Of a stretch of DNA of 64,000 nucleotides, positions 28,079 through 38,889 are shown piece after piece; the stretch's first letter is position 1, and each line of letters opens with the position of its first letter. Below the pieces are notes generated by a model. It made no database searches and was not told where the DNA came from. It saw only the letters and a list, made by a program, of their open reading frames with translations. The stretch is from the NCBI RefSeq assembly GCF_036322705.1, contig NZ_AP027270.1:924501-988500 (forward strand), written 5' to 3'. A program made the position numbers and the translations under genes. The DNA comes from Maricaulis maris (GTDB lineage: Bacteria; Pseudomonadota; Alphaproteobacteria; Caulobacterales; Maricaulaceae).

Positions 28079-30007
28079 ATGAAATCGCGAATGAACACTT
28101 CTCCGGCTGCCCGCGACCTGATCAAGCGGTTTGAGCCCTTCAGAGCGGACGCCCAGCAGGACGAGACGGGCCGCTGGGTCGTCGGCTATGGTCACCGAGC
28201 TGCCGCCAAGGCCGGTGTCCGTGTCACCGAGGACGAAGCGGCGTTGCTGCTCATCTATGATGTGATGCGCGCCGAGGAAGTGGTCGATGACAGCATTACC
28301 GGACCCCTGTCCCGCGGGCAGCGCGATGCCCTGACCTCCTTTGTCCACGATATCGGCGTTGACCGCTTCCGCGGCTCCGACGTGGCCCGCTACCTGTTCG
28401 AGGGCCGTGCCCGCGCCGCCGGCGAGGCGCTCGCGGCTTATGGCGACGGAATATCCGCGCGGCGCGAGGCCGAAAGCCGGCTCTTTCTCGACGCCCTTAT
28501 GCCCGCCGAGCCCGGCAAGGCCCACAAGTCCGAACCGGTCGAGCTGGTCATCAAGATCGAACACCCGAGTGAGGAACGTATCCTGGAAGGCGCAGTCGCC
28601 GGTGAGGACGCGCCGTCGCCGCAAGCCTATTCCGACGATCTGCCGCCACCGCCGCCGCCGCCCGATGCCAGCCTGGCGCGTCGCCGCGAGGCGGAAGACG
28701 AGATTGCCCGCATCCTGGCTGCCGTCGAGGCCCTGCCTCCGGAAGTCCGTCAGGAGATTGGTGATGCCGGAATGGCACCGGTTGCCGATGCGGTTTCCGA
28801 CATGCGCGGTGATCCGATCGAGGGGGCCTGGCAGGCCGTCGACGAGGACGTGCTGCAGCCCGAGACCCCCGCCGAAGAACCCGCCGACCCGGCCGTCGAA
28901 ACCGTGGCTGCGGACGATCTTGAAGACGGTGTTGAGGCCGCTGCCGACGAGGCCGCCGCTGCCGATGCCGCTGCCGATGCCGATGCCGATCCGGACGCCG
29001 CCGCCGACCGCGTGATCGCGCGCATGGCAGAGCAGATCGAGGCCGGGCAGATCGAAGCCGATCAGGGCGAGGCCGTGGCGGAGGTGGTTGCCGTTGATCC
29101 GGCCCTGGTCGCCCCGGCGCCGCTTGAAGTCCCGGCTGAACCAACGCCGCGTACCGCTCCACCAGCGATCGGCGCCTTTGACCTGCCGGACGGCATGGGG
29201 CTCGGCTTTGTTCTTACCGGCGGCGCGCCGGCGCCGGTGGCCGAGCCGGCCCCACGCCCCGAGCTGCCCGAACACTATTCCCTTGCCCTGCCGACCGGTA
29301 TGGGGCTTGGCTATGCCCTGACCCGGGTCATGGAAGGCAGTTTCCGCGTCGCACCGGAACCGGTCGAGCCGGAACAGGTCGCGGCCGATGACGTGGCCGC
29401 GCCGGAAATCGAGCCCGCGCCCCGGACCGAACCGGACGCCGAGGTGATCGAGCCGGAAGCGCAGCCCGACCCGGAGGCTCTGATCGCAGACGCCGAGGTT
29501 GAGACTGAAGCTGAAGCCGCTACCGATGCGCCCGCGGACCCGATTAATGACGGCATGCCGCCGCACCCCGCAGAAACGCCGGCCGAAGCCAGTGGCGCTG
29601 TGGGCGAGGTGGCCGGAGAGCCGGTCGTCGGCGAGCACGCGGCCGAGCATGTCGCTCTCGACGATCTCGAAGATGATCCGATGATGGCCGGTCATGACCC
29701 GATGGCCGATGAGGACGATGAATTCTCACCCCGTGACCTCGCCGCGGACGTGCACGAGATCGATGACCGCAATGTCTCGAAATCCGATGATGGACTGTGG
29801 ACGTTCACGGCGGTCCTGGTCGCGGGCCTGTTCCTGGCCGGCTTTGGCAGCGTGCTCGCTGCGTCGGAGTGGGACTACATCATGGCCCAGCGCGAAATGA
29901 CGCTGAACTTCGGCATGGCGCTCGCTGGATTTTTCCTCGTCATCGTTGCCGGATGGCAGCTGGCTTCGATTTGGCTGTCCAAGTTGAAACAAAAGGCCGG
30001 CAACTAG
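28079..30007 (+). CDS. spmX: SpmX-like polar muramidase with long acidic linker
   Basis: SpmX in Caulobacter marks the stalked pole and recruits the kinase DivJ; in Asticcacaulis it places the stalk. This homologue has the same three parts: a GH24 muramidase domain (about residues 8-145; Glu19 of RFEPF and Asp28 match the lysozyme Glu and Asp, but the Thr three residues before the GYGH motif is Val34), a long disordered linker rich in Pro and acidic residues (about 146-570, starting near a run of seven prolines), and two C-terminal membrane helices (about 574-597 and 611-633). At 642 residues it is far longer than the roughly 430 I recall for Caulobacter SpmX; the linker accounts for the difference. 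The linker repeats DGMGLGFVLT/TGMGLGYALT. Assignment by architecture. Confidence 0.82.
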   Translation: MKSRMNTSPAARDLIKRFEPFRADAQQDETGRWVVGYGHRAAAKAGVRVTEDEAALLLIYDVMRAEEVVDDSITGPLSRGQRDALTSFVHDIGVDRFRGSDVARYLFEGRARAAGEALAAYGDGISARREAESRLFLDALMPAEPGKAHKSEPVELVIKIEHPSEERILEGAVAGEDAPSPQAYSDDLPPPPPPPDASLARRREAEDEIARILAAVEALPPEVRQEIGDAGMAPVADAVSDMRGDPIEGAWQAVDEDVLQPETPAEEPADPAVETVAADDLEDGVEAAADEAAAADAAADADADPDAAADRVIARMAEQIEAGQIEADQGEAVAEVVAVDPALVAPAPLEVPAEPTPRTAPPAIGAFDLPDGMGLGFVLTGGAPAPVAEPAPRPELPEHYSLALPTGMGLGYALTRVMEGSFRVAPEPVEPEQVAADDVAAPEIEPAPRTEPDAEVIEPEAQPDPEALIADAEVETEAEAATDAPADPINDGMPPHPAETPAEASGAVGEVAGEPVVGEHAAEHVALDDLEDDPMMAGHDPMADEDDEFSPRDLAADVHEIDDRNVSKSDDGLWTFTAVLVAGLFLAGFGSVLAASEWDYIMAQREMTLNFGMALAGFFLVIVAGWQLASIWLSKLKQKAGN

Positions 30008-31370: not shown

Positions 31371-31871
31371 GTGAAGTCCGTCTCAGCACTAACAGTTGGC
31401 GCGATTTTGTTGCTCGGATGCTCGTCGGAGCCATCAAGCGCCCAGCCCGGCGCGATGGACCGCTTGTCGGCCTACGATACGATTGATGTCTGCCTCTATC
31501 GCGAGACGACACCAACCGGTCGCCAAACCTGTATCGGTGAATACCAGGCGGCCTGTGAGCGCTTGTCGCCGAACGGCGATACGACGGCCGGCTTGCTGCA
31601 ATGTGCGGCGGAAGAATACGAAGCCTGGGATCGTTGGCTCAGTGACGCCTATCGCGATCTGCGCGAGGGCCTGCCCGAGCCGTCTGTGGCGCAACTGCGT
31701 GAGGCCCAGCGCAGCTGGATGGCGCATCGCGATCTCGACTGCGAGTTTATGGCCGGCCTTTACGCCGGTGGATCGCTGGAAAACGTCGAGCGTGCCACCT
31801 GCCAGGTCCGAAAGACCGCCGAGCGAGCAATCGAATTCATGCGCTGGGAAACGGCCTATCCAACCGACTGA
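31371..31871 (+). CDS. LprI/DUF1311-family lipoprotein (lysozyme inhibitor-like)
   Basis: A 166-residue lipoprotein with lipobox LLLGC (Cys17). The mature part has the cysteine-rich LprI N-terminal fold: a Cys near CIGEYQAACE, then LLQCAAEEYEAWDRWLSDAYRDL, REAQRSWMAHRDLDCEFM and RATCQVRKTAERAIEFM. This family (PF07007) includes LprI, reported to inhibit lysozyme in mycobacteria. A GTG start follows GGAGG at 31358. It converges with the caspase/lysozyme operon, whose last gene starts 15 bases away on the opposite strand. Confidence 0.85.
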   Translation: MKSVSALTVGAILLLGCSSEPSSAQPGAMDRLSAYDTIDVCLYRETTPTGRQTCIGEYQAACERLSPNGDTTAGLLQCAAEEYEAWDRWLSDAYRDLREGLPEPSVAQLREAQRSWMAHRDLDCEFMAGLYAGGSLENVERATCQVRKTAERAIEFMRWETAYPTD

Positions 31872-31886
31872 GATCGCCCGTCTCTG

Positions 31887-32912
31887 TCAGAGGGGCGGAG
31901 GCAGGATAAGACCGCCAGCCCGCCACAGGGCGCTCGGGCCGCGATCAATTGGCAAGCTGCTGGTCGGTCCGAATGACCGGTCGTAAATCTCGGCAAGGTT
32001 TCCTGCAGCCTGTATTGCGCGAACCGCCCAATCTGACTCCAGTCCTAGCGAAGCGCCAGAAGAGTTCAAACGTTCCAATTGAGACTGCCAGGCGGCTCCG
32101 CCGGCCGTTCTCATTTCTGCTGCCGTCACGCCGAGATCCTCTGCCGTGGCCAGGACGTAGAAGGTCCAGCGAACGATGTCTGTCCAGTGGTCATCACCTT
32201 GTCGGGTCCCGATCGACAGAGGCGAATAGGCCAAGCGTCCTCCGATGAGGCGATGTTCGCCCGGTTCCGGCAGCGAGATCTGGAGTGCGCGCAAGGCGGC
32301 CTGGCCATCGGCGATCCCGACGCAGCGGCCTTCGAGATAGGCCTGGCGATATTGTTCGGCACTCCCGAGAGGCAGAGTATTGATGATCGCGTTTGAGGCG
32401 GTCGCTAGGTCGTTGATGATTACTTCCGACGGTCCGCCCGCGATGACGCACACAGTGCGATCATTGAGCATGGCCAGGTCAGTTATCCCGCTGTCGGACG
32501 GGACCATCACCATTTCCTCGTCAACGAAGAAAGGTCCGACGAACTGAACAGCTTCCGCCGTGTCACGTGTGAACGTCCATGTCGTATTGCGCAGAATGAC
32601 ATCGATCGTGCCGGAACGCAGGGCGGTGAAGCGATTGCCTGCGGTCACCGGGACAAACTCCGTCGCGGTCGGATCGCCGAGCGTTGCCGCTGCAATGGCG
32701 CGACAGAGGTCCGCGGTCATTCCGACCCACTCACCCGACGCATCGGCCATCGACATGCCCAGTTGCCCCGGATTTACGCCACACCGCAGATAGCCGCGCT
32801 CCTGGACGGCGGACAGCGTGTCGCGCTGGGCAGCCGCGTTGCCGGACAGGCCAGCCGCAGTCAGGATTGCGGATACGAGCGCCAAGGCGAGCAGGCGAAC
32901 AGTAGAGTGCAT
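31887..32912 (-). CDS. AapJ-like amino-acid-binding protein, copy 2
   Basis: A periplasmic solute-binding protein related to AapJ/BztA, the binding component of general L-amino-acid ABC transporters. 341 residues from the Met at 32912, with a signal peptide (LLALALVSAILTAAG). It has RGYLRCGVNPGQLGMS, DLCRAIAAATLGDP, RFTALRSGTIDVILRNTTWTFTRD and SLGLESDWAVRAIQAAGN, the family landmarks. It is the second of a tandem pair with the next gene. There is no ABC permease or ATPase in this window, so it may be a lone sensor. Confidence 0.88.
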   Translation of the reverse strand: MHSTVRLLALALVSAILTAAGLSGNAAAQRDTLSAVQERGYLRCGVNPGQLGMSMADASGEWVGMTADLCRAIAAATLGDPTATEFVPVTAGNRFTALRSGTIDVILRNTTWTFTRDTAEAVQFVGPFFVDEEMVMVPSDSGITDLAMLNDRTVCVIAGGPSEVIINDLATASNAIINTLPLGSAEQYRQAYLEGRCVGIADGQAALRALQISLPEPGEHRLIGGRLAYSPLSIGTRQGDDHWTDIVRWTFYVLATAEDLGVTAAEMRTAGGAAWQSQLERLNSSGASLGLESDWAVRAIQAAGNLAEIYDRSFGPTSSLPIDRGPSALWRAGGLILPPPL

Positions 32913-32923
32913 GGCCGGGATCC

Positions 32924-33979
32924 TCATTCGAACGGGGCTGAAAAAATCATGCCGCCATTCTGCCAAAGGGCGCTACGCCCTCGTTCGATCGGCAACGCGC
33001 TTTCGGGGCCAAAGGAGCGCTCGTAGATCTCGCCGAGATTTCCGACAGCCTGGATGGCGCGAAGGGCCCAGTTCGCCTCAAGACCCAGCAAGGCCCCGGA
33101 GCCACCTTCGGGACTGATCATGCGTCGGATAATGGGGTGCCGGGACTCAACGGAGAGACGCTGCGCATTGGTCTGTGTGACATTGAGGAGTTCGGCGGTT
33201 GCAAGCGCGTTGAATGTCCATTGAACGATGTCGTCCCACCGGTCATCGCCGTGACGGACTGCCAGCGAAAGGGGCGACAAGGCCAGTTGTTCGTCCAGGA
33301 TGCGGTGGCTGTCCGGGTCTATCTGTGCGGCGCGCAAGGCTTCCAGGCCTGCCTTGCCATCGGTCACGCCAATGCAGCGACCCGATTCATAGGCACGCGC
33401 ATAGTCTTCGGTCCCGGTGACCGGGACGAACTCGATCTCAATGCCGAGCTGTGCCTGATAATTGCGCAGGACTGTTTCGGTCAAACTTCCGGTCACGGCG
33501 CAGATGGGTTGTCCGTCCAGTTCGGCGACTGTTGTGAAGCCGGTGCTAGCGCGGACGAGCAGGCTTTCTACCTCAATAAAATAGGGGCCGATAAAATCGA
33601 CGCCTTGCGTGGTGTCGCGCGAAAAGGTCCAGGTTGTTGTGCGGCTGAGCACGTCGATTTCACCGGACTGCAAGGCGGTGAAGCGGGTCCGCGCTGTTAC
33701 CGGCACAAACTCGATGGCGTTCGGATCGCCCAAGGTTGCCGCCGCAATGGCACGACAAAGATCAATGCCCATCCCTTCCCAGAGGCCTCGCGCATTCTGG
33801 CGGGCCATCCCTGTCTGCGACGGGTTGACGCCGCAGCGCAAAGTGCCGCGCTCATGCACCACGGCCAGCGTCTCGGACTGGATGGCTGAGGTATCCTGGG
33901 CATAGCTCGCCGCTGAAAGGCTGCAAGCCAGCGTGATGAGAATCGAGCGTCCGATATCGGTGAGGCTGAACCGGGTCAT
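32924..33979 (-). CDS. AapJ-like amino-acid-binding protein, copy 1
   Basis: A 351-residue binding protein with a signal peptide (MTRFSLTDIGRSILITLACSLSAASYA) and the same fold as its downstream neighbour: RGTLRCGVNPSQTGMA, LCRAIAAATLGDP, LQSGEIDVLSRTTTWTFSRD. Its start overlaps the stop of the caspase/lysozyme gene by 4 bases (ATGA), so it is translationally coupled to it. Amino-acid ligands are presumed from the family; the ligand site residues were not worked out. Confidence 0.88.
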   Translation of the reverse strand: MTRFSLTDIGRSILITLACSLSAASYAQDTSAIQSETLAVVHERGTLRCGVNPSQTGMARQNARGLWEGMGIDLCRAIAAATLGDPNAIEFVPVTARTRFTALQSGEIDVLSRTTTWTFSRDTTQGVDFIGPYFIEVESLLVRASTGFTTVAELDGQPICAVTGSLTETVLRNYQAQLGIEIEFVPVTGTEDYARAYESGRCIGVTDGKAGLEALRAAQIDPDSHRILDEQLALSPLSLAVRHGDDRWDDIVQWTFNALATAELLNVTQTNAQRLSVESRHPIIRRMISPEGGSGALLGLEANWALRAIQAVGNLGEIYERSFGPESALPIERGRSALWQNGGMIFSAPFE

Positions 33980-36738
33980 GATCTGAATCCCATGGTGAAC
34001 AGTGCGGCGGCACTGGCGCGAATTTCGCTCAGGTTTTCAAGGCGCTGCCCTGCCATCCCGGTTTGGCTTTCATCCCAATAGCCGATTGCTGCCAGCGCGG
34101 CCTGGGTGTTGCCCTGATTGACATAGGTCATGACGGGCGTACGTGCGAAGCGCTGTTCGCCCATCGTATAAGCCAGAATGGTCAAAGCCTCGATCTGGAG
34201 CGGTTCCAGCGGCTGGGAGAGTTGATTGCTGACCCGGGCCCTGACATTCGCGAGGTCGGCCTGAAGCTGTTCCCGTGCAGCCTCCTCGTCCATGCGGTTG
34301 GGCGTGCCGTTCAACGGCATGACTGAGCCATATCCGATCATGCCCCGGTCCTCGTCGATCTCCACACGCTGGGTCAAAAGTGGAACGTTGGCCGCAATCA
34401 CGCTTTCCGCAATATCGGTGTCCGGAGAGAGGTTGAACAGGGCGCGTTCGGCGTGGCGCCGACGATCCAAACCGCGCACGATGGTCAACTCACCATTGAT
34501 GCGGGCCTGGTTCCAGGCCAGGAATTGGTCGGCCGCGCCCGCCATGTCTCCCTCATTGAGCGCACTGACAAGTGTGCTCTCGGCGACGCGATTGCGCCCT
34601 ACATTGTAGGACAGAGAGAGTATGGCCGCTTGCTGATTGGGTGAGAGCTCCGCTTCAATAGCCGGTTCCAGCTCGCGCCAGTCAGTTTCGACATAGTCCT
34701 CAAGATACCTCATTGCCTGATCAGTCGTGATGTGCAGGCCCGGGCCAATGTCCGGACCGGTCGTGCCAAATCCGATCGTCCAGACGCCGACAATGTCCTG
34801 GTAGGCGTCCAGTTCAAGGCCTTCAAACATTCGAATGAAGTAGGCGGCATTTCGTAATCCGCTCGCTGCCGAGAATGCTTGGGCGACCTCGGCGCTTGGC
34901 GCGGCGACAGATTCGGCCTGCGGACGCGAGGCGGCAACAAGTTCGGCAACTGTCGCATCGGGCGCAATCTCAATGCCCTGCTCCTCCAGCGCGCGAGAAA
35001 GCCGGATCTCATGGAGACGGTCTCGCGCGGCGCCCTGCGTGACCGCAAGGAAAAGGGCTGTTTCATAAGCGCGCCGACGGAGCAGCTGCTCGTCATGGAT
35101 AATGCGTCCGGCTTCTATGCGGAATGACGAGAAGGCGAGTTCGCGAGCCACGGCGTAGACATTACCATCACCAAGGCGTCGACAAATCGCCGATCTGGAA
35201 AATGTTTCAACGGATATCGAGACCGCGAAGGAGGCCAGCGCTTCCATCTGGTTTGCGTTGAGAGGTGTAGGCGAGCAATCCGCCACGGCGGAGCGCGCTC
35301 GGTTGAGGGCGGTGTCCAGCTGAACGCCAGGTTCAAGGTCTGCGTCCACGCCGGTCCGGGGGAAGGCCGCGACAATTGCGCCTGCGCCATGGCCGCGTGT
35401 GGGCAATTCAAACAAGGCTCGCTCGATGATGCGGCGTCGCATTATCGAGAGGCTGTCATGGCGTTGACCGGCCGATGCGTCCGCAAGTCGCTCGATGGCA
35501 TCCGGCAAATCAGCGAACTCGCCGGTTTCCAGAGCCTGGTCAATGCCGGCGGCGTGCAGTCGATTGCTTGAGGTCGAGCTAGTCACAGACAGGATGGCGG
35601 CCTTCTGCCAGTCGTCGAGTGTCGACGCGCGTGATTGCTCAAGCACGCGACGCCAGGCCTCAAGCCGTTCGACTTCAAGCGCATTATCCGTGAGGAGAAC
35701 GCGGCCTGCCCGCGACGCAGGAAATGTATCGTCGATATTCAGGACCGTGAGGGTTGCGACTGTGTCACTCACTGCACGCACGCTGCGTGTTTCTGACCCG
35801 ACAAGTGAGGAAACAGAGGCGCGTGTCGCCACCCGACGCGAGTTCTCGCGTGTCAAAAGACTCCGTTCCGCTTCGTCGAGCCGAGAAAGGAGGCTGTTCG
35901 AACCGAGTGTTCCAACAAGCGGACCCGCGCTATCAATGTCTTGCCCGAAGCGAATGGACAAATGCTGACGGTCATTGGTTTCTTCGGCGACAATAACACT
36001 CGCTTGGTAGGCAACCCGGATAATGTCGGAATAGGGCGTGCGTAGCGTGTCGGCAAAGGCCTGCGCGAGCGCGGAAATGTGCGGGCCGTCACCGGTCGGG
36101 CTTGTTTCCCCCAGAATATTGCCGGCATCCGGAATCAGGCTTCCCGGAGTCGCAGCGAAGATCTGCATCTCGTTGTGGTCGAGGACCTCGTCTGCGAGCG
36201 CCATGTCCAGAACGGGGGTCGGGCCTTCGAGCAAAGGTCCGGGCAAAGTCCGATCAAGCATGATGAGTTTGATCCGGGGCTCTCTGTCGGCAGGCGGGCG
36301 AAAACTCCCGGCCAGTCGTACCAATTGGCTATCGACGGCGTCCGGGCCCCATGCTTCTGCGTCAACGGGAATGAGGAAATTCTCGCCATTGACCTGTGCC
36401 ACATGCCCTGAGTGATAGAACACGGCAACGCCGCCTGCATTCATCTGGGCTTCAAATACACGCATATACTGGACGGTTTGCGCCCAGTTCAGATTGTGCA
36501 GCGCGCCGCCGCCAATAAGCGTGAAGCCCTGTCTGCGCAAGGCATCGGCCACAAGTTCCGCATCTTCTTCAGCACCCTCGAGGCGCGTGAAGTTCCTGTA
36601 GGCGGCATTTCCGATGACGAGCGCGACACGTTCTTCGACAGCGGGTGGATAGACGTCGGCCGTCTGCCCGCCGGGTTGGCAAGCCGAGAGGGCGGTCAGA
36701 ATCGCCGCCAAGAAAATGAGCCGAAGCAGGCCCGTCAT
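33976..36738 (-). CDS. Lipoprotein with degenerate caspase domain and four lysozyme-like units
   Basis: A 920-residue lipoprotein (lipobox LSAC, Cys20). Residues about 36-240 form a C14 caspase-like fold: EERVALVIGNAAYRN, FYHSGHVAQVNGENFLIPVDA (His112 in the catalytic His place). The strand that normally ends LDACR reads LDRTL, putting Thr164 where the catalytic Cys should be. Four GH24 lysozyme-like units follow: lobe repeats at about 377-444 and 493-563, one full lysozyme (633-768) with Glu639, Asp648 and Thr654 at T4-lysozyme spacing, and a degenerate full copy (about 786-914). Start at 36738 after GAGG. First gene of an operon with two amino-acid-binding proteins. Function unknown: an envelope murein sensor or lysozyme is possible. 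Confidence 0.85.
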   Translation of the reverse strand: MTGLLRLIFLAAILTALSACQPGGQTADVYPPAVEERVALVIGNAAYRNFTRLEGAEEDAELVADALRRQGFTLIGGGALHNLNWAQTVQYMRVFEAQMNAGGVAVFYHSGHVAQVNGENFLIPVDAEAWGPDAVDSQLVRLAGSFRPPADREPRIKLIMLDRTLPGPLLEGPTPVLDMALADEVLDHNEMQIFAATPGSLIPDAGNILGETSPTGDGPHISALAQAFADTLRTPYSDIIRVAYQASVIVAEETNDRQHLSIRFGQDIDSAGPLVGTLGSNSLLSRLDEAERSLLTRENSRRVATRASVSSLVGSETRSVRAVSDTVATLTVLNIDDTFPASRAGRVLLTDNALEVERLEAWRRVLEQSRASTLDDWQKAAILSVTSSTSSNRLHAAGIDQALETGEFADLPDAIERLADASAGQRHDSLSIMRRRIIERALFELPTRGHGAGAIVAAFPRTGVDADLEPGVQLDTALNRARSAVADCSPTPLNANQMEALASFAVSISVETFSRSAICRRLGDGNVYAVARELAFSSFRIEAGRIIHDEQLLRRRAYETALFLAVTQGAARDRLHEIRLSRALEEQGIEIAPDATVAELVAASRPQAESVAAPSAEVAQAFSAASGLRNAAYFIRMFEGLELDAYQDIVGVWTIGFGTTGPDIGPGLHITTDQAMRYLEDYVETDWRELEPAIEAELSPNQQAAILSLSYNVGRNRVAESTLVSALNEGDMAGAADQFLAWNQARINGELTIVRGLDRRRHAERALFNLSPDTDIAESVIAANVPLLTQRVEIDEDRGMIGYGSVMPLNGTPNRMDEEAAREQLQADLANVRARVSNQLSQPLEPLQIEALTILAYTMGEQRFARTPVMTYVNQGNTQAALAAIGYWDESQTGMAGQRLENLSEIRASAAALFTMGFRS

Positions 36739-36925: not shown

Positions 36926-37150
36926 ATGAAATTTTTGGCAGACCTGTTCAAACCATTGTTGACCCTTCTGGTGACAATCGTCGGGCTTGGTTTCGTTGCG
37001 TCCGTTTTGTCGCCGCAAGTGGATGCGCTCATCGAGTCCTGGGTGCCTGCCTGGGCAGCGGTCGATCCCGCCGAGCAGGTCGTGCGGGGCTGGTTGGGTC
37101 TGGACGAAGCGGCGGAACCGTCCTGGTGGCATTTCTGGGGGCGTGACTAG
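36926..37150 (+). CDS. Small membrane protein of unknown function
   Basis: A 74-residue protein with one membrane helix (FKPLLTLLVTIVGLGFVASVL) near the N-terminus and a tryptophan-rich end (PSWWHFWGRD). A GAAGG lies 5 bases before the ATG. It is divergent from the caspase/lysozyme lipoprotein gene and its stop overlaps the patatin gene by 4 bases on the other strand. No family recognised; gene status rests on the ribosome site and the protein-like composition. Confidence 0.6.
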   Translation: MKFLADLFKPLLTLLVTIVGLGFVASVLSPQVDALIESWVPAWAAVDPAEQVVRGWLGLDEAAEPSWWHFWGRD

Positions 37151-38889
37151 CCGGCCGCTTTCAGGCCCAGCGTGACCCGCATCTCGTCGTCTATGCCGGC
37201 CAGCATGCCCTGGGCAGCTTCATAACCGGCGTCGCGCACTTCCTCGAAACGGTCCCAGGACCGGATATCGACCGAGGTTTCTGGCAGGATCAGCAGATCG
37301 GCCGCCTCGCGCCCGATATCGCGGTGATCGGCGACCCCGATCGTGGCCGCCCGCATCAGGAGCGAGGCGATCGGGGGCGGTGATTTCAGGCCGTGCTTGC
37401 GGACCCACTCGATAAAGCCCGGGGGGTTTTCGAAATCGGCGGGATTGAGGCCCTGGGCCCGCGTCACATCGACGCCAACCACAGCACCACGATGAAAGGC
37501 GCGCATCTCGCGGGCCGGGAAATTGGTGAAGACGGCCCCGTCGACCAGGATCTGGCCATTGACCACCACCGGCGGCAACAGGCCGGGAATGGCGATCGAG
37601 GCGCGCAGGGCATGGCGCAGCGTGCCGGAGCGATGGACTTGCGGCCGACCACTGGCGAGGTTTGAGGACAGGCAGAAATAGGGGCGCACCATCTCCGCGA
37701 TCTCGACATCGCCGAAATGTTCTTCGAGGCGCGCATCGACCTTCTCACCCTTGGCTAGGGAGACCACCGGCAGGGTCCAGTCATCAAGCGGGTTGGACTC
37801 GACAAAGGCCTTGCGAATGCGCCGTTCCAGCTCGTCATCGGACCAGTCGAGCGCGACCCCGGCCGCAATGATGGCGCCCATCGAGGCGCCGCCGACGAAA
37901 TCAAACGGCACGCCCGCTTCGCGCAAGGCCCGGATGGCGCCCATATGGGCATAGGCCCGGGCGCCACCGCCCGACACAACGAGCCCCACCGAACGCCCCG
38001 ACAGCGTGCGTGCGAGCCGGGCGGTGTCGGCGACATGATGATCCTGCCGCCAGTGAAAGACGCGGGCCGCGTCCGCCGCATTGGCCCAGTCCTGGGGCCG
38101 CGAGGCTGCCGTCACCCCGCCGGGGTGCAAGAGGACGACATCGAGTAGTTTCAGTCGCATGGCCGGCGAGGGGTCGTCCGGGAGAAGCGGGGTCGAGGGC
38201 CGCGCATCGGCGCGGGCGAACAGCCACATCCGGTCAGCCCGGCCCATCGCCCGGCGGGCCCAGTTCGGATTGGAGAAGCGCGCGGTCAGCAGGACCACCT
38301 CATGCTTGGCTTCCAGCGCATCGAGCTTCTGGCCGCTCCAGTCGGCACAGTTCTCGTCTGCGATGGCGCAACTGACACCCATCCCGGTCAGGGTCGCGGA
38401 CAATTCCTTGGCGCGATAGTCGAGATCAATCGTCGGCGAGGTACTGATCAGGGCGAAGACCTTGGGCTCCGAGCCCGAGGCGCGCCGCGGCCCGCGCAGC
38501 CGCGTCAGCATCATGCGCGACAATTCCCGCATCAGGCCGGCATGCTTGTTGGTAAGGCGCTCGAAGCTGGCCTTGGGCAGGCGGACGAGCTCGCTGTCGC
38601 GCAGGGCGTAGACGCTGGCCGAGTGCGGGGTCTCGTCGAGCATCGACATCTCGCCGACCGGCTCGCCGGTCCGGATATAGCCGATCAGGTCCGGTCGTCC
38701 CAGCGCGCCATTGCGGAAGGCAGCCAGCGCGCCGGAGCGGACCAGATAGATGGCGTCGGCGTCATCGCCTTCGCGGAAGAGAAGTTTGCCCGCCGGCAGG
38801 CAGAACCACTCGACTTCGTGCTCGACAGCGTCGAGGACCGATTTCTCGACCCGGTTGAGAAAGGGCAGGAAGGAGAGGTTGAGAGGCAT
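37147..38889 (-). CDS. Patatin-like phospholipase with N-terminal cNMP-binding domain
   Basis: A 580-residue protein of the NTE/RssA-like architecture. A cyclic-nucleotide-binding domain covers residues about 5-125 (KLLFREGDDADAIYLVRSG, GEPVGEMSMLD). The patatin domain starts with GGGARAYAHMG (about 307-317), has the nucleophile Ser336 in GGASMGA and the catalytic Asp450 in VDGAVFTN. Members hydrolyse lysophospholipids. A linker of about 170 residues lies between the domains, as in bacterial NTE-like proteins. No ligand for the cNMP domain is evident. Confidence 0.92.
   Translation of the reverse strand: MPLNLSFLPFLNRVEKSVLDAVEHEVEWFCLPAGKLLFREGDDADAIYLVRSGALAAFRNGALGRPDLIGYIRTGEPVGEMSMLDETPHSASVYALRDSELVRLPKASFERLTNKHAGLMRELSRMMLTRLRGPRRASGSEPKVFALISTSPTIDLDYRAKELSATLTGMGVSCAIADENCADWSGQKLDALEAKHEVVLLTARFSNPNWARRAMGRADRMWLFARADARPSTPLLPDDPSPAMRLKLLDVVLLHPGGVTAASRPQDWANAADAARVFHWRQDHHVADTARLARTLSGRSVGLVVSGGGARAYAHMGAIRALREAGVPFDFVGGASMGAIIAAGVALDWSDDELERRIRKAFVESNPLDDWTLPVVSLAKGEKVDARLEEHFGDVEIAEMVRPYFCLSSNLASGRPQVHRSGTLRHALRASIAIPGLLPPVVVNGQILVDGAVFTNFPAREMRAFHRGAVVGVDVTRAQGLNPADFENPPGFIEWVRKHGLKSPPPIASLLMRAATIGVADHRDIGREAADLLILPETSVDIRSWDRFEEVRDAGYEAAQGMLAGIDDEMRVTLGLKAAG

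Follow-up and report, generated by a model that had tools for sequence, protein, structure and literature searches.

Can a caspase fold that has lost its cutting residue serve a cell-wall enzyme in the same chain? The question is raised by a gene of Maricaulis maris (assembly GCF_036322705.1) that lies in the window, the whole stretch of 64,000 nucleotides analysed here (contig NZ_AP027270.1, positions 924,501 to 988,500 of the forward strand). The gene runs from 36738 to 33976 on the minus strand (33976..36738) and encodes a fusion protein of 920 amino acids plus stop, labelled P0001; its coordinates and start were confirmed. An earlier note, made from the letters alone, had described a lipoprotein joining a cysteine-less caspase fold to four lysozyme-like units, and this domain architecture is well supported. 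P0001 combines a caspase domain whose catalytic Cys is lost with a lysozyme unit whose catalytic triad is intact, it is under purifying selection, and its gene heads a three-gene cassette with two genes for substrate-binding proteins (SBPs). The features of its N-terminal part are as follows.

36679..36738 (-): signal peptide and lipobox LSAC, with lipid-anchor Cys20 and Gln as the +2 residue, by eye
35959..36639 (-): caspase-fold (p20) domain, residues 34-260, without catalytic Cys; Pfam, structure model and Foldseek
36403..36405 (-): retained catalytic-type His112 (VFYHSGH), which aligns with GH in 17 viral-contig caspase homologs
36247..36249 (-): Thr164 at the position of the catalytic Cys (LDRTLPGP versus LDACRNNP), by alignment
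35737..35904 (-): long predicted helix, residues 279-334, linking the caspase and lysozyme parts; helix 253-308 in model numbering, of low confidence at its start

A constrained caspase domain without its nucleophile

The N-terminal caspase fold proposed in the earlier note is borne out by profile and structure. Pfam Peptidase_C14 (PF00656) matches P0001 at 2.5e-11 (44.1 bits against a cut-off of 21.4), with its best stretch at residues 37-129 and profile positions 2-102 of 233. A model of residues 27-335, based on a 22-row alignment in which four orthologs and 17 viral-contig caspase homologs accompany P0001, adopts a caspase fold with a mean predicted local distance difference test score (pLDDT) of 78.1 and a predicted template modelling score of 0.72; residues 166-178, 197-205 and 277-284 fall below pLDDT 50. 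Foldseek against the PDB placed MALT1 at ranks 1-30 (top match 2.5e-12, probability 1.00), followed, among the 50 matches listed, by caspases, a metacaspase and more MALT1. Sequence matches of P0001 in the PDB likewise include both the paracaspase MALT1 (to 9e-5) and GH24 lysozymes (to 3.8e-26).

The domain has the p20 fold of an active Peptidase C14 or orthocaspase but lacks the His-Cys dyad. His112 and Thr164 are each invariant in 6/6 orthologs. The only cysteines of the whole chain are residues 20, 488 and 519; none lies in the caspase domain, and residues 21-487 offer no alternative Cys for the active site. The two outcomes by which the earlier note could have been refuted, no caspase fold or a substitute Cys, did not occur. 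These three cysteines, H112, T164 and the triad residues E639, D648 and T654 of the lysozyme part were verified letter by letter. The loss extends to the relatives, as the earlier note had proposed to check: the Cys is absent from 6/6 orthologs and from the active-site motif of 7/7 members of a second fusion family described below. Among the 42 caspase domains of our tree, selected by a pattern that required the His motif and not the Cys, the Cys motif is kept in 29/29 domains outside the two fusion families, including a third type of fusion at locus L103, and in 0/13 inside them. With the dyad not intact in 6/6 orthologs, which stand on one side of a branch supported at 100/99, the protein matches the pseudo-orthocaspases in this trait. 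Pseudo-orthocaspases also have no p10 domain; in P0001 the best C14 stretch ends at profile position 102, and the model is unsure in the loops at 166-178 and 197-205. Caspase homologs are also encoded by 34 viral-collection contigs (L177-L210), several with an intact LDACR.

The dead site is conserved. The runs GGVAVFYHSGH (11 residues) and LDRTLPGPL (nine, residues 161-169) are wholly invariant in 6/6 orthologs and rank among the longest fully invariant runs of the alignment. Two ortholog pairs gave ratios of nonsynonymous to synonymous substitution rates (dN/dS) of 0.083 and 0.064 for the caspase part, comparable to the 0.03-0.20 of the four lysozyme units. Mature regions as a whole give 0.03-0.20 where computable, indicating purifying selection, although these values are rough because dS is high (proportion of synonymous differences 0.43-0.76 in mature regions; residues 261-345 saturated in one pair). 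Values are higher in the fast-evolving signal peptide (0.42 and 0.62), and the open frame is intact over its full length in 6/6 assemblies. A site that has lost its nucleophile yet keeps invariant runs suggests that the pseudo-caspase may bind rather than cut.

The description as a lipoprotein also stands: a lipobox Cys, C20 at the end of LSAC-Q, follows a signal peptide and is invariant in 6/6 orthologs, as judged by eye and not by a signal-peptide program. The sorting of bacterial lipoproteins follows the +2 residue, and the Gln found here predicts sorting to the outer membrane.

One complete unit in the lysozyme-like tail

The C-terminal part was resolved with a GH24 hidden Markov model (HMM) built from 30 sequences; the independent E-values (iE) given here come from a search of nine proteins.

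35398..35664 (-): GH24-like unit 1, residues 359-447, C-lobe only, degenerate; iE 2.7e-5, weak
35035..35313 (-): GH24-like unit 2, residues 476-568, C-lobe only, degenerate; iE 2e-13
34429..34842 (-): GH24 unit 3, residues 633-770, complete; iE 7.8e-45, Pfam and PDB lysozymes
33994..34338 (-): GH24-like unit 4, residues 801-915, triad lost; iE 2.1e-14, profile 28-142 of 150

Pfam Phage_lysozyme, which the earlier note had named for checking together with Peptidase_C14, matches P0001 at 1.6e-58, and three stretches pass individually. The proposed count of four lysozyme-like units holds clearly for three, and unit 1 is weak: four scanned orthologs gave it iE values between 8e-5 and 0.25, and a search of 1117 frames gave 0.0036 for P0001 and listed nothing for the other five orthologs. 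Unit 2 holds C488 and C519, a pair kept in 6/6 orthologs that could form a disulfide. The T4 lysozyme triad has spacings of 9 and 6. Unit 3 alone has the GH24 fold with Glu-Asp-Thr at this spacing (E639-D648-T654, invariant in 6/6), exactly as first noticed; units 1, 2 and 4 lack the triad, unit 4 being without the start that bears it.

Unit 3 is 37-49% identical to phage lysozymes (best 20 of the 1973 phage records matched). In a GH24 tree of 65 rows, it groups with endolysin-type lysozymes, including four phage lysozymes, apart from the SpmX side (split 100/100). The full triad and this grouping make a working muramidase likelier than a mere anchor, and unit 3 is apparently such an enzyme, as far as sequence can tell. 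An origin of the catalytic unit from SpmX was considered and is rejected by the GH24 tree; P0001 also scores 121.8 bits against the NCBIfam SpmX cut-off of 700.

An operon with two binding proteins

The two genes that follow the fusion gene are read in the same direction.

32924..33979 (-): SBP1, periplasmic substrate-binding protein, 351 amino acids; PF00497 at 8.3e-15, TIGR01096 at 7.3e-37, the latter below cut-off
31887..32927 (-): SBP2, periplasmic substrate-binding protein, about 346 amino acids from the overlapping ATG; PF00497 at 1.8e-16

ATGA overlaps of 4 bp couple the fusion stop to the SBP1 start and the SBP1 stop to the SBP2 ATG, forming a three-gene unit. Both products are SBP_bac_3 proteins with signal peptides recognised by eye. 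No permease or ATPase gene of an ATP-binding cassette (ABC) transporter lies beside them, the nearest genes being the fusion gene and those for LprI, an acyl-CoA dehydrogenase and a CRP-patatin protein; SBP1 and SBP2 may be used by a permease encoded elsewhere in the genome. In 6/6 carriers (the window and five further loci), the fusion and SBP genes stand between the CRP-patatin and acyl-CoA dehydrogenase genes. At 12/12 non-carrier Maricaulis loci examined, of 14 non-carriers, CRP-patatin faces LprI with 12-295 bases between the matched ends, and the cassette site is closed. Relatives of SBP1 at 49% identity or more are confined to the six Maricaulis-type carriers among 137 genomes of the family; 32 other family genomes have one relative each at 34-40% identity (1e-30). 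A putative binding partner of the dead caspase is more plausibly sought in these two coupled genes, on which the finding of the earlier note is silent.

The upstream CRP-patatin gene (37147-38889, minus strand) encodes a patatin phospholipase fused with a cyclic-nucleotide-binding domain and is present in 6/6 carriers, 1.9 kb off in G004, and in 12/12 non-carriers examined. Its NCBIfam matches to phospholipases of the cyclic oligonucleotide-based antiphage signalling system (CBASS) and to anti-phage phospholipases are far under cut-off (26.3 of 200 and 13.7 of 400 bits). An LprI-family ("lysozyme inhibitor") protein is encoded at 31371-31871 on the plus strand, convergent with the cassette. 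It was considered as a cognate partner and rejected, as it occurs in 12/12 non-carriers examined and was not found (at 1e-8) beside 2/6 carriers. An SpmX-like lysozyme protein (28079-30007, plus strand; Phage_lysozyme 5.2e-21; NCBIfam SpmX 92.2 bits, cut-off 700) is encoded 4 kb from the fusion gene, a position that it keeps in 16/16 genus loci examined, from 19 genus genomes; weak extra matches to the fusion within the genus are this gene at the loci examined.

Distribution and related fusions

Full-length orthologs of P0001 occur in 5/19 genomes of the genus and 6/137 of the family (five Maricaulis and one of another genus). The carrier from the other genus, G217, has the same synteny, so we infer that differential loss is likelier than recent arrival. 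Carriage by phages or plasmids was rejected on record coverage: a match spanning 80% of the protein at a single site was absent from all 50,697 phage and 72,556 plasmid records, and among the 20 matches listed for each, phage and plasmid records match the GH24 part, one plasmid row matching the caspase part.

The combination of caspase and lysozyme, to which the earlier note knew no parallel, turned out not to be unique to this gene. A search of the order (398 genomes) brought up a second, membrane-anchored family that combines a caspase-like domain without catalytic Cys with GH24 units. A scan of the class (385 genomes) added the member in G720 (locus L115), one of 40 genomes of its family, bringing the total to seven genomes. 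Six of these are among the 137 family genomes, never alongside the first family. Its members consist of an N-terminal hydrophobic stretch, the caspase-like domain and two GH24 units. GH is kept in 7/7, and ETRG, ETEG, ETQG or ETKG replaces DACR; Glu-Asp-Thr is kept in the first GH24 unit of the six aligned, and the second unit is degenerate by eye. Pfam C14 matched one of four members scanned (21.3 bits against a cut-off of 21.4), and because it barely matched, the caspase assignment of this family comes mainly from alignment.

A small membrane protein with the motif WTPxxFxxGLLY follows the second-family fusion in 6/7 loci; at L144 (G720), the next called gene lies on the other strand.

L095:10300-10638, L096:9144-9482, L097:10472-10825: small membrane protein, downstream of the second-family fusion
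L098:10475-10837, L099:10410-10733, L171 near 3450: small membrane protein, downstream of the second-family fusion

It is 107-120 amino acids long in the five measured, overlaps the fusion by 4 bp in 4/5, and has no significant Pfam or PHROG family match. It may resemble the membrane parts of sensor kinases, and it could be the input partner of the second family.

A third type of fusion retains an intact caspase.

L103:1817-3862 (-): fusion in G110, intact caspase plus GH24; Pfam C14 at 3.7e-28

Here YFSGH and IDACRNDP are present, and the caspase is fused to two GH24 units, one degenerate and the other complete. It is the only full-length match in 62 genomes of its family. Because its GH24 unit clusters with endolysins from the same genus (99/86), this fusion may have arisen separately. 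Across 1117 distinct frames from 310 loci, both domains occur together in 14 (six of the first family, seven of the second, and L103), the caspase HMM of this search having been built with the fusions included, so that its E-values for them hold by construction. A scan of the phylum (398 genomes) listed no further fusion, and the long GH24 frames examined (e.g. L026, L029, L145 and L146) carry no caspase domain. The order, class and phylum scans scored the top two candidates of each genome and did not take in all long frames, which makes the fusion counts lower bounds.

Trees leave room for one or more origins, with long-branch warnings from the programs for both the caspase and the GH24 tree. 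In the caspase tree, the two Cys-less families come together at 64/84, and with L103 added at 52/74; the first family with L103 alone has a p-value of 0.165 in the approximately unbiased test (p-AU). The best GH24 tree places L132, a row without the fusion, among the two families. Holding these together gave a likelihood 4.35 higher (p-AU 0.626), and adding L103 lowered it by 8.75 (p-AU 0.289), an arrangement that is not rejected.

A possible regulated muramidase and its alternatives

We read P0001, at a probability of roughly 0.4, as a regulated periplasmic muramidase anchored in the outer membrane, which the pseudo-caspase and the broken lysozyme units would control and for which the binding proteins would provide ligand input. 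The lipid-anchored N-terminal pseudo-caspase, with its His kept and its Cys replaced by Thr, would no longer cut; it would bind a partner or a peptide. The long helix might relay its state to the lysozyme tail, in which unit 3 only would cleave peptidoglycan and units 1, 2 and 4 would act as regulatory or docking modules. SBP1 and SBP2 would supply the signal, their ligand-loaded form (with an amino acid or a cell-wall peptide) engaging the pseudo-caspase or the tail and thereby switching local wall cleavage on or off. The restraint and the ligand gating each have a parallel in another wall enzyme. The muramidase of PrgK is held back by a degenerate LytM domain together with a CHAP domain (PMC11323569), and MltF becomes active once muropeptides are engaged by its regulatory domain (PMC10746161). 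The "murein-anchored sensor" of the earlier note understates unit 3 with its full triad and endolysin grouping.

Several observations weigh against this reading. The restraint in PrgK is reported to be lost on Gram-negative walls (PMC11323569), and SpmX keeps its catalytic Glu although no lysozyme activity was detected (PMC5347347), so an intact triad is no proof of activity. The gene is absent from 14/19 genus genomes, one of them 69% complete, and is therefore not a core wall function. The carrier G004 (locus L100) has one SBP gene and not two, and an SBP gene was not found in the five second-family loci examined. The dN/dS values are rough, as noted above. The structure prediction of the whole protein that the earlier note had proposed, made with AlphaFold and five orthologs, reached a mean pLDDT of only 42.7; no fold was read from it, and the caspase fold comes from the separate model of residues 27-335.

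The strongest competitor, doubtful but to be taken seriously, is the view of the earlier note, a sensor or scaffold bound to the wall, in which, as in SpmX, the lysozyme folds would bind peptidoglycan or proteins, no unit would cut and the pseudo-caspase would recruit partners. The lack of the triad in 3/4 units fits this, as does the SpmX lysozyme-like domain, which mediates oligomerisation and partner binding without detected activity (PMC5347347); the invariant Glu-Asp-Thr of unit 3, its identity to phage lysozymes and its place among endolysin-type enzymes, away from the SpmX side, do not. The endolysin character of unit 3 would also suit an autolysin that is kept under control and set free for programmed lysis once damage is sensed by the envelope or the pseudo-caspase, an idea akin to the caspase-amidase fusions discussed as possible death proteins (PMC3501461). 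The patchy distribution, frequent for accessory genes, agrees with it, and the small membrane protein of the second family can be read as holin-like, although its sole holin match is not significant (0.92). However, no gene for a small membrane protein was found linked to the Maricaulis gene, whose conserved cassette has binding proteins instead, a dead caspase removes the proteolytic trigger, and purifying selection together with the same chromosomal place in two genera looks like steady use; we regard lysis as rather unlikely.

Caspase-fold proteins are also used in defence, and a role against phages or in conflict between bacteria, with the caspase as sensor and the lysozyme as effector, could explain the sporadic occurrence (six first-family and six second-family genomes of 137, never both) and the CRP-patatin neighbour with its weak CBASS and anti-phage matches. 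This is improbable: the patatin gene is also present in the non-carriers examined, the other Pfam-named neighbours are not defence genes, the protein is predicted to be exported, and the PADLOC caspase model reached only E 0.0088 in a scan of P0001 alone. Continued proteolysis by the caspase domain, with Thr164 in the part of the nucleophile, is very hard to credit despite the invariance of both His112 and Thr164, since the second family has ETxG-type motifs where caspases have DACR, and we know of no caspase fold that uses an internal Thr in this way. Decay or a chimeric origin of the gene, to which three degenerate lysozyme units, a degenerate protease site and the fast signal peptide might point, is the least credible explanation and is largely refuted by the full-length frames and the low mature dN/dS values.

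A wider form of the regulated-muramidase reading, which we consider unlikely as a whole, is that the caspase fold became a non-proteolytic allosteric relay at least once and perhaps twice, in lineages that differ in anchor and input genes; ligand-loaded SBPs would dock on the pseudo-caspase and gate an endolysin-type muramidase restrained by broken copies of itself.

Relation to known systems and implications

Pseudo-orthocaspases and caspase-amidase fusions are already known; the caspase-GH24 fusion and its SBP cassette are what is added here. Among the matches listed in a search of the open-licence PMC literature, subscription papers and bioRxiv being outside it, neither was found. The regulatory domain of MltF is of the family-3 binding-protein type. 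As a glycan-cutting wall enzyme coupled to a muropeptide-responsive regulatory domain, MltF resembles our proposal; it differs in being a transglycosylase with its sensor in the same chain, whereas the SBPs of the fusion are separate genes linked by operon and co-occurrence only (PMC10746161). PrgK of pCF10 likewise holds an active muramidase and other hydrolase domains, one of them degenerate, in a single chain. It is Gram-positive, with LytM and CHAP domains and a description that mentions no caspase, and the likeness is one of domain description (PMC11323569). SpmX shares the GH24-type fold, but its lysozyme domain is N-terminal with C-terminal transmembrane tethers, and unit 3 lies outside its side of the tree (PMC5347347).

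On the caspase side, pseudo-orthocaspases account for 18.9% of alphaproteobacterial orthocaspases and are seemingly limited to three other orders (PMC6426788, 2019). Like the fusion, they are p20 proteins of Alphaproteobacteria without the His-Cys dyad, their variants being tied to domain architectures. The fusion differs in its hosts, Maricaulis and relatives, and in its dyad, which is His-Thr (ETxG for DACR in the second family) as opposed to YS, YA, FS, QC and HA, the common ones named for the Rhizobiales; the partners named for pseudo-orthocaspases are TPR, trypsin-like, DUF4384 or none identifiable, and the word lysozyme does not occur in the main text of that source (PMC6426788). Metacaspases joined to Amidase_2 (four sequences) also unite a caspase fold and a peptidoglycan hydrolase in one chain, and 11 others carry a putative peptidoglycan-binding domain; the hydrolase there is an amidase and not GH24, and lysozyme is again absent from the main text (PMC3501461).

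The conserved dead site next to an apparently working muramidase suggests that the caspase fold has perhaps been reused to control cell-wall cutting and not to cut proteins. To our knowledge, little is known of how bacterial pseudo-caspases work. With a dead caspase in one chain with a putative muramidase and in one operon with binding proteins, both of which lend themselves to simple assays, the role of a bacterial dead caspase becomes directly testable, and the intact-caspase fusion at L103 provides a natural comparison. If the relay reading is true, Maricaulis and its relatives would possess a ligand-gated lysozyme built on a dead caspase.

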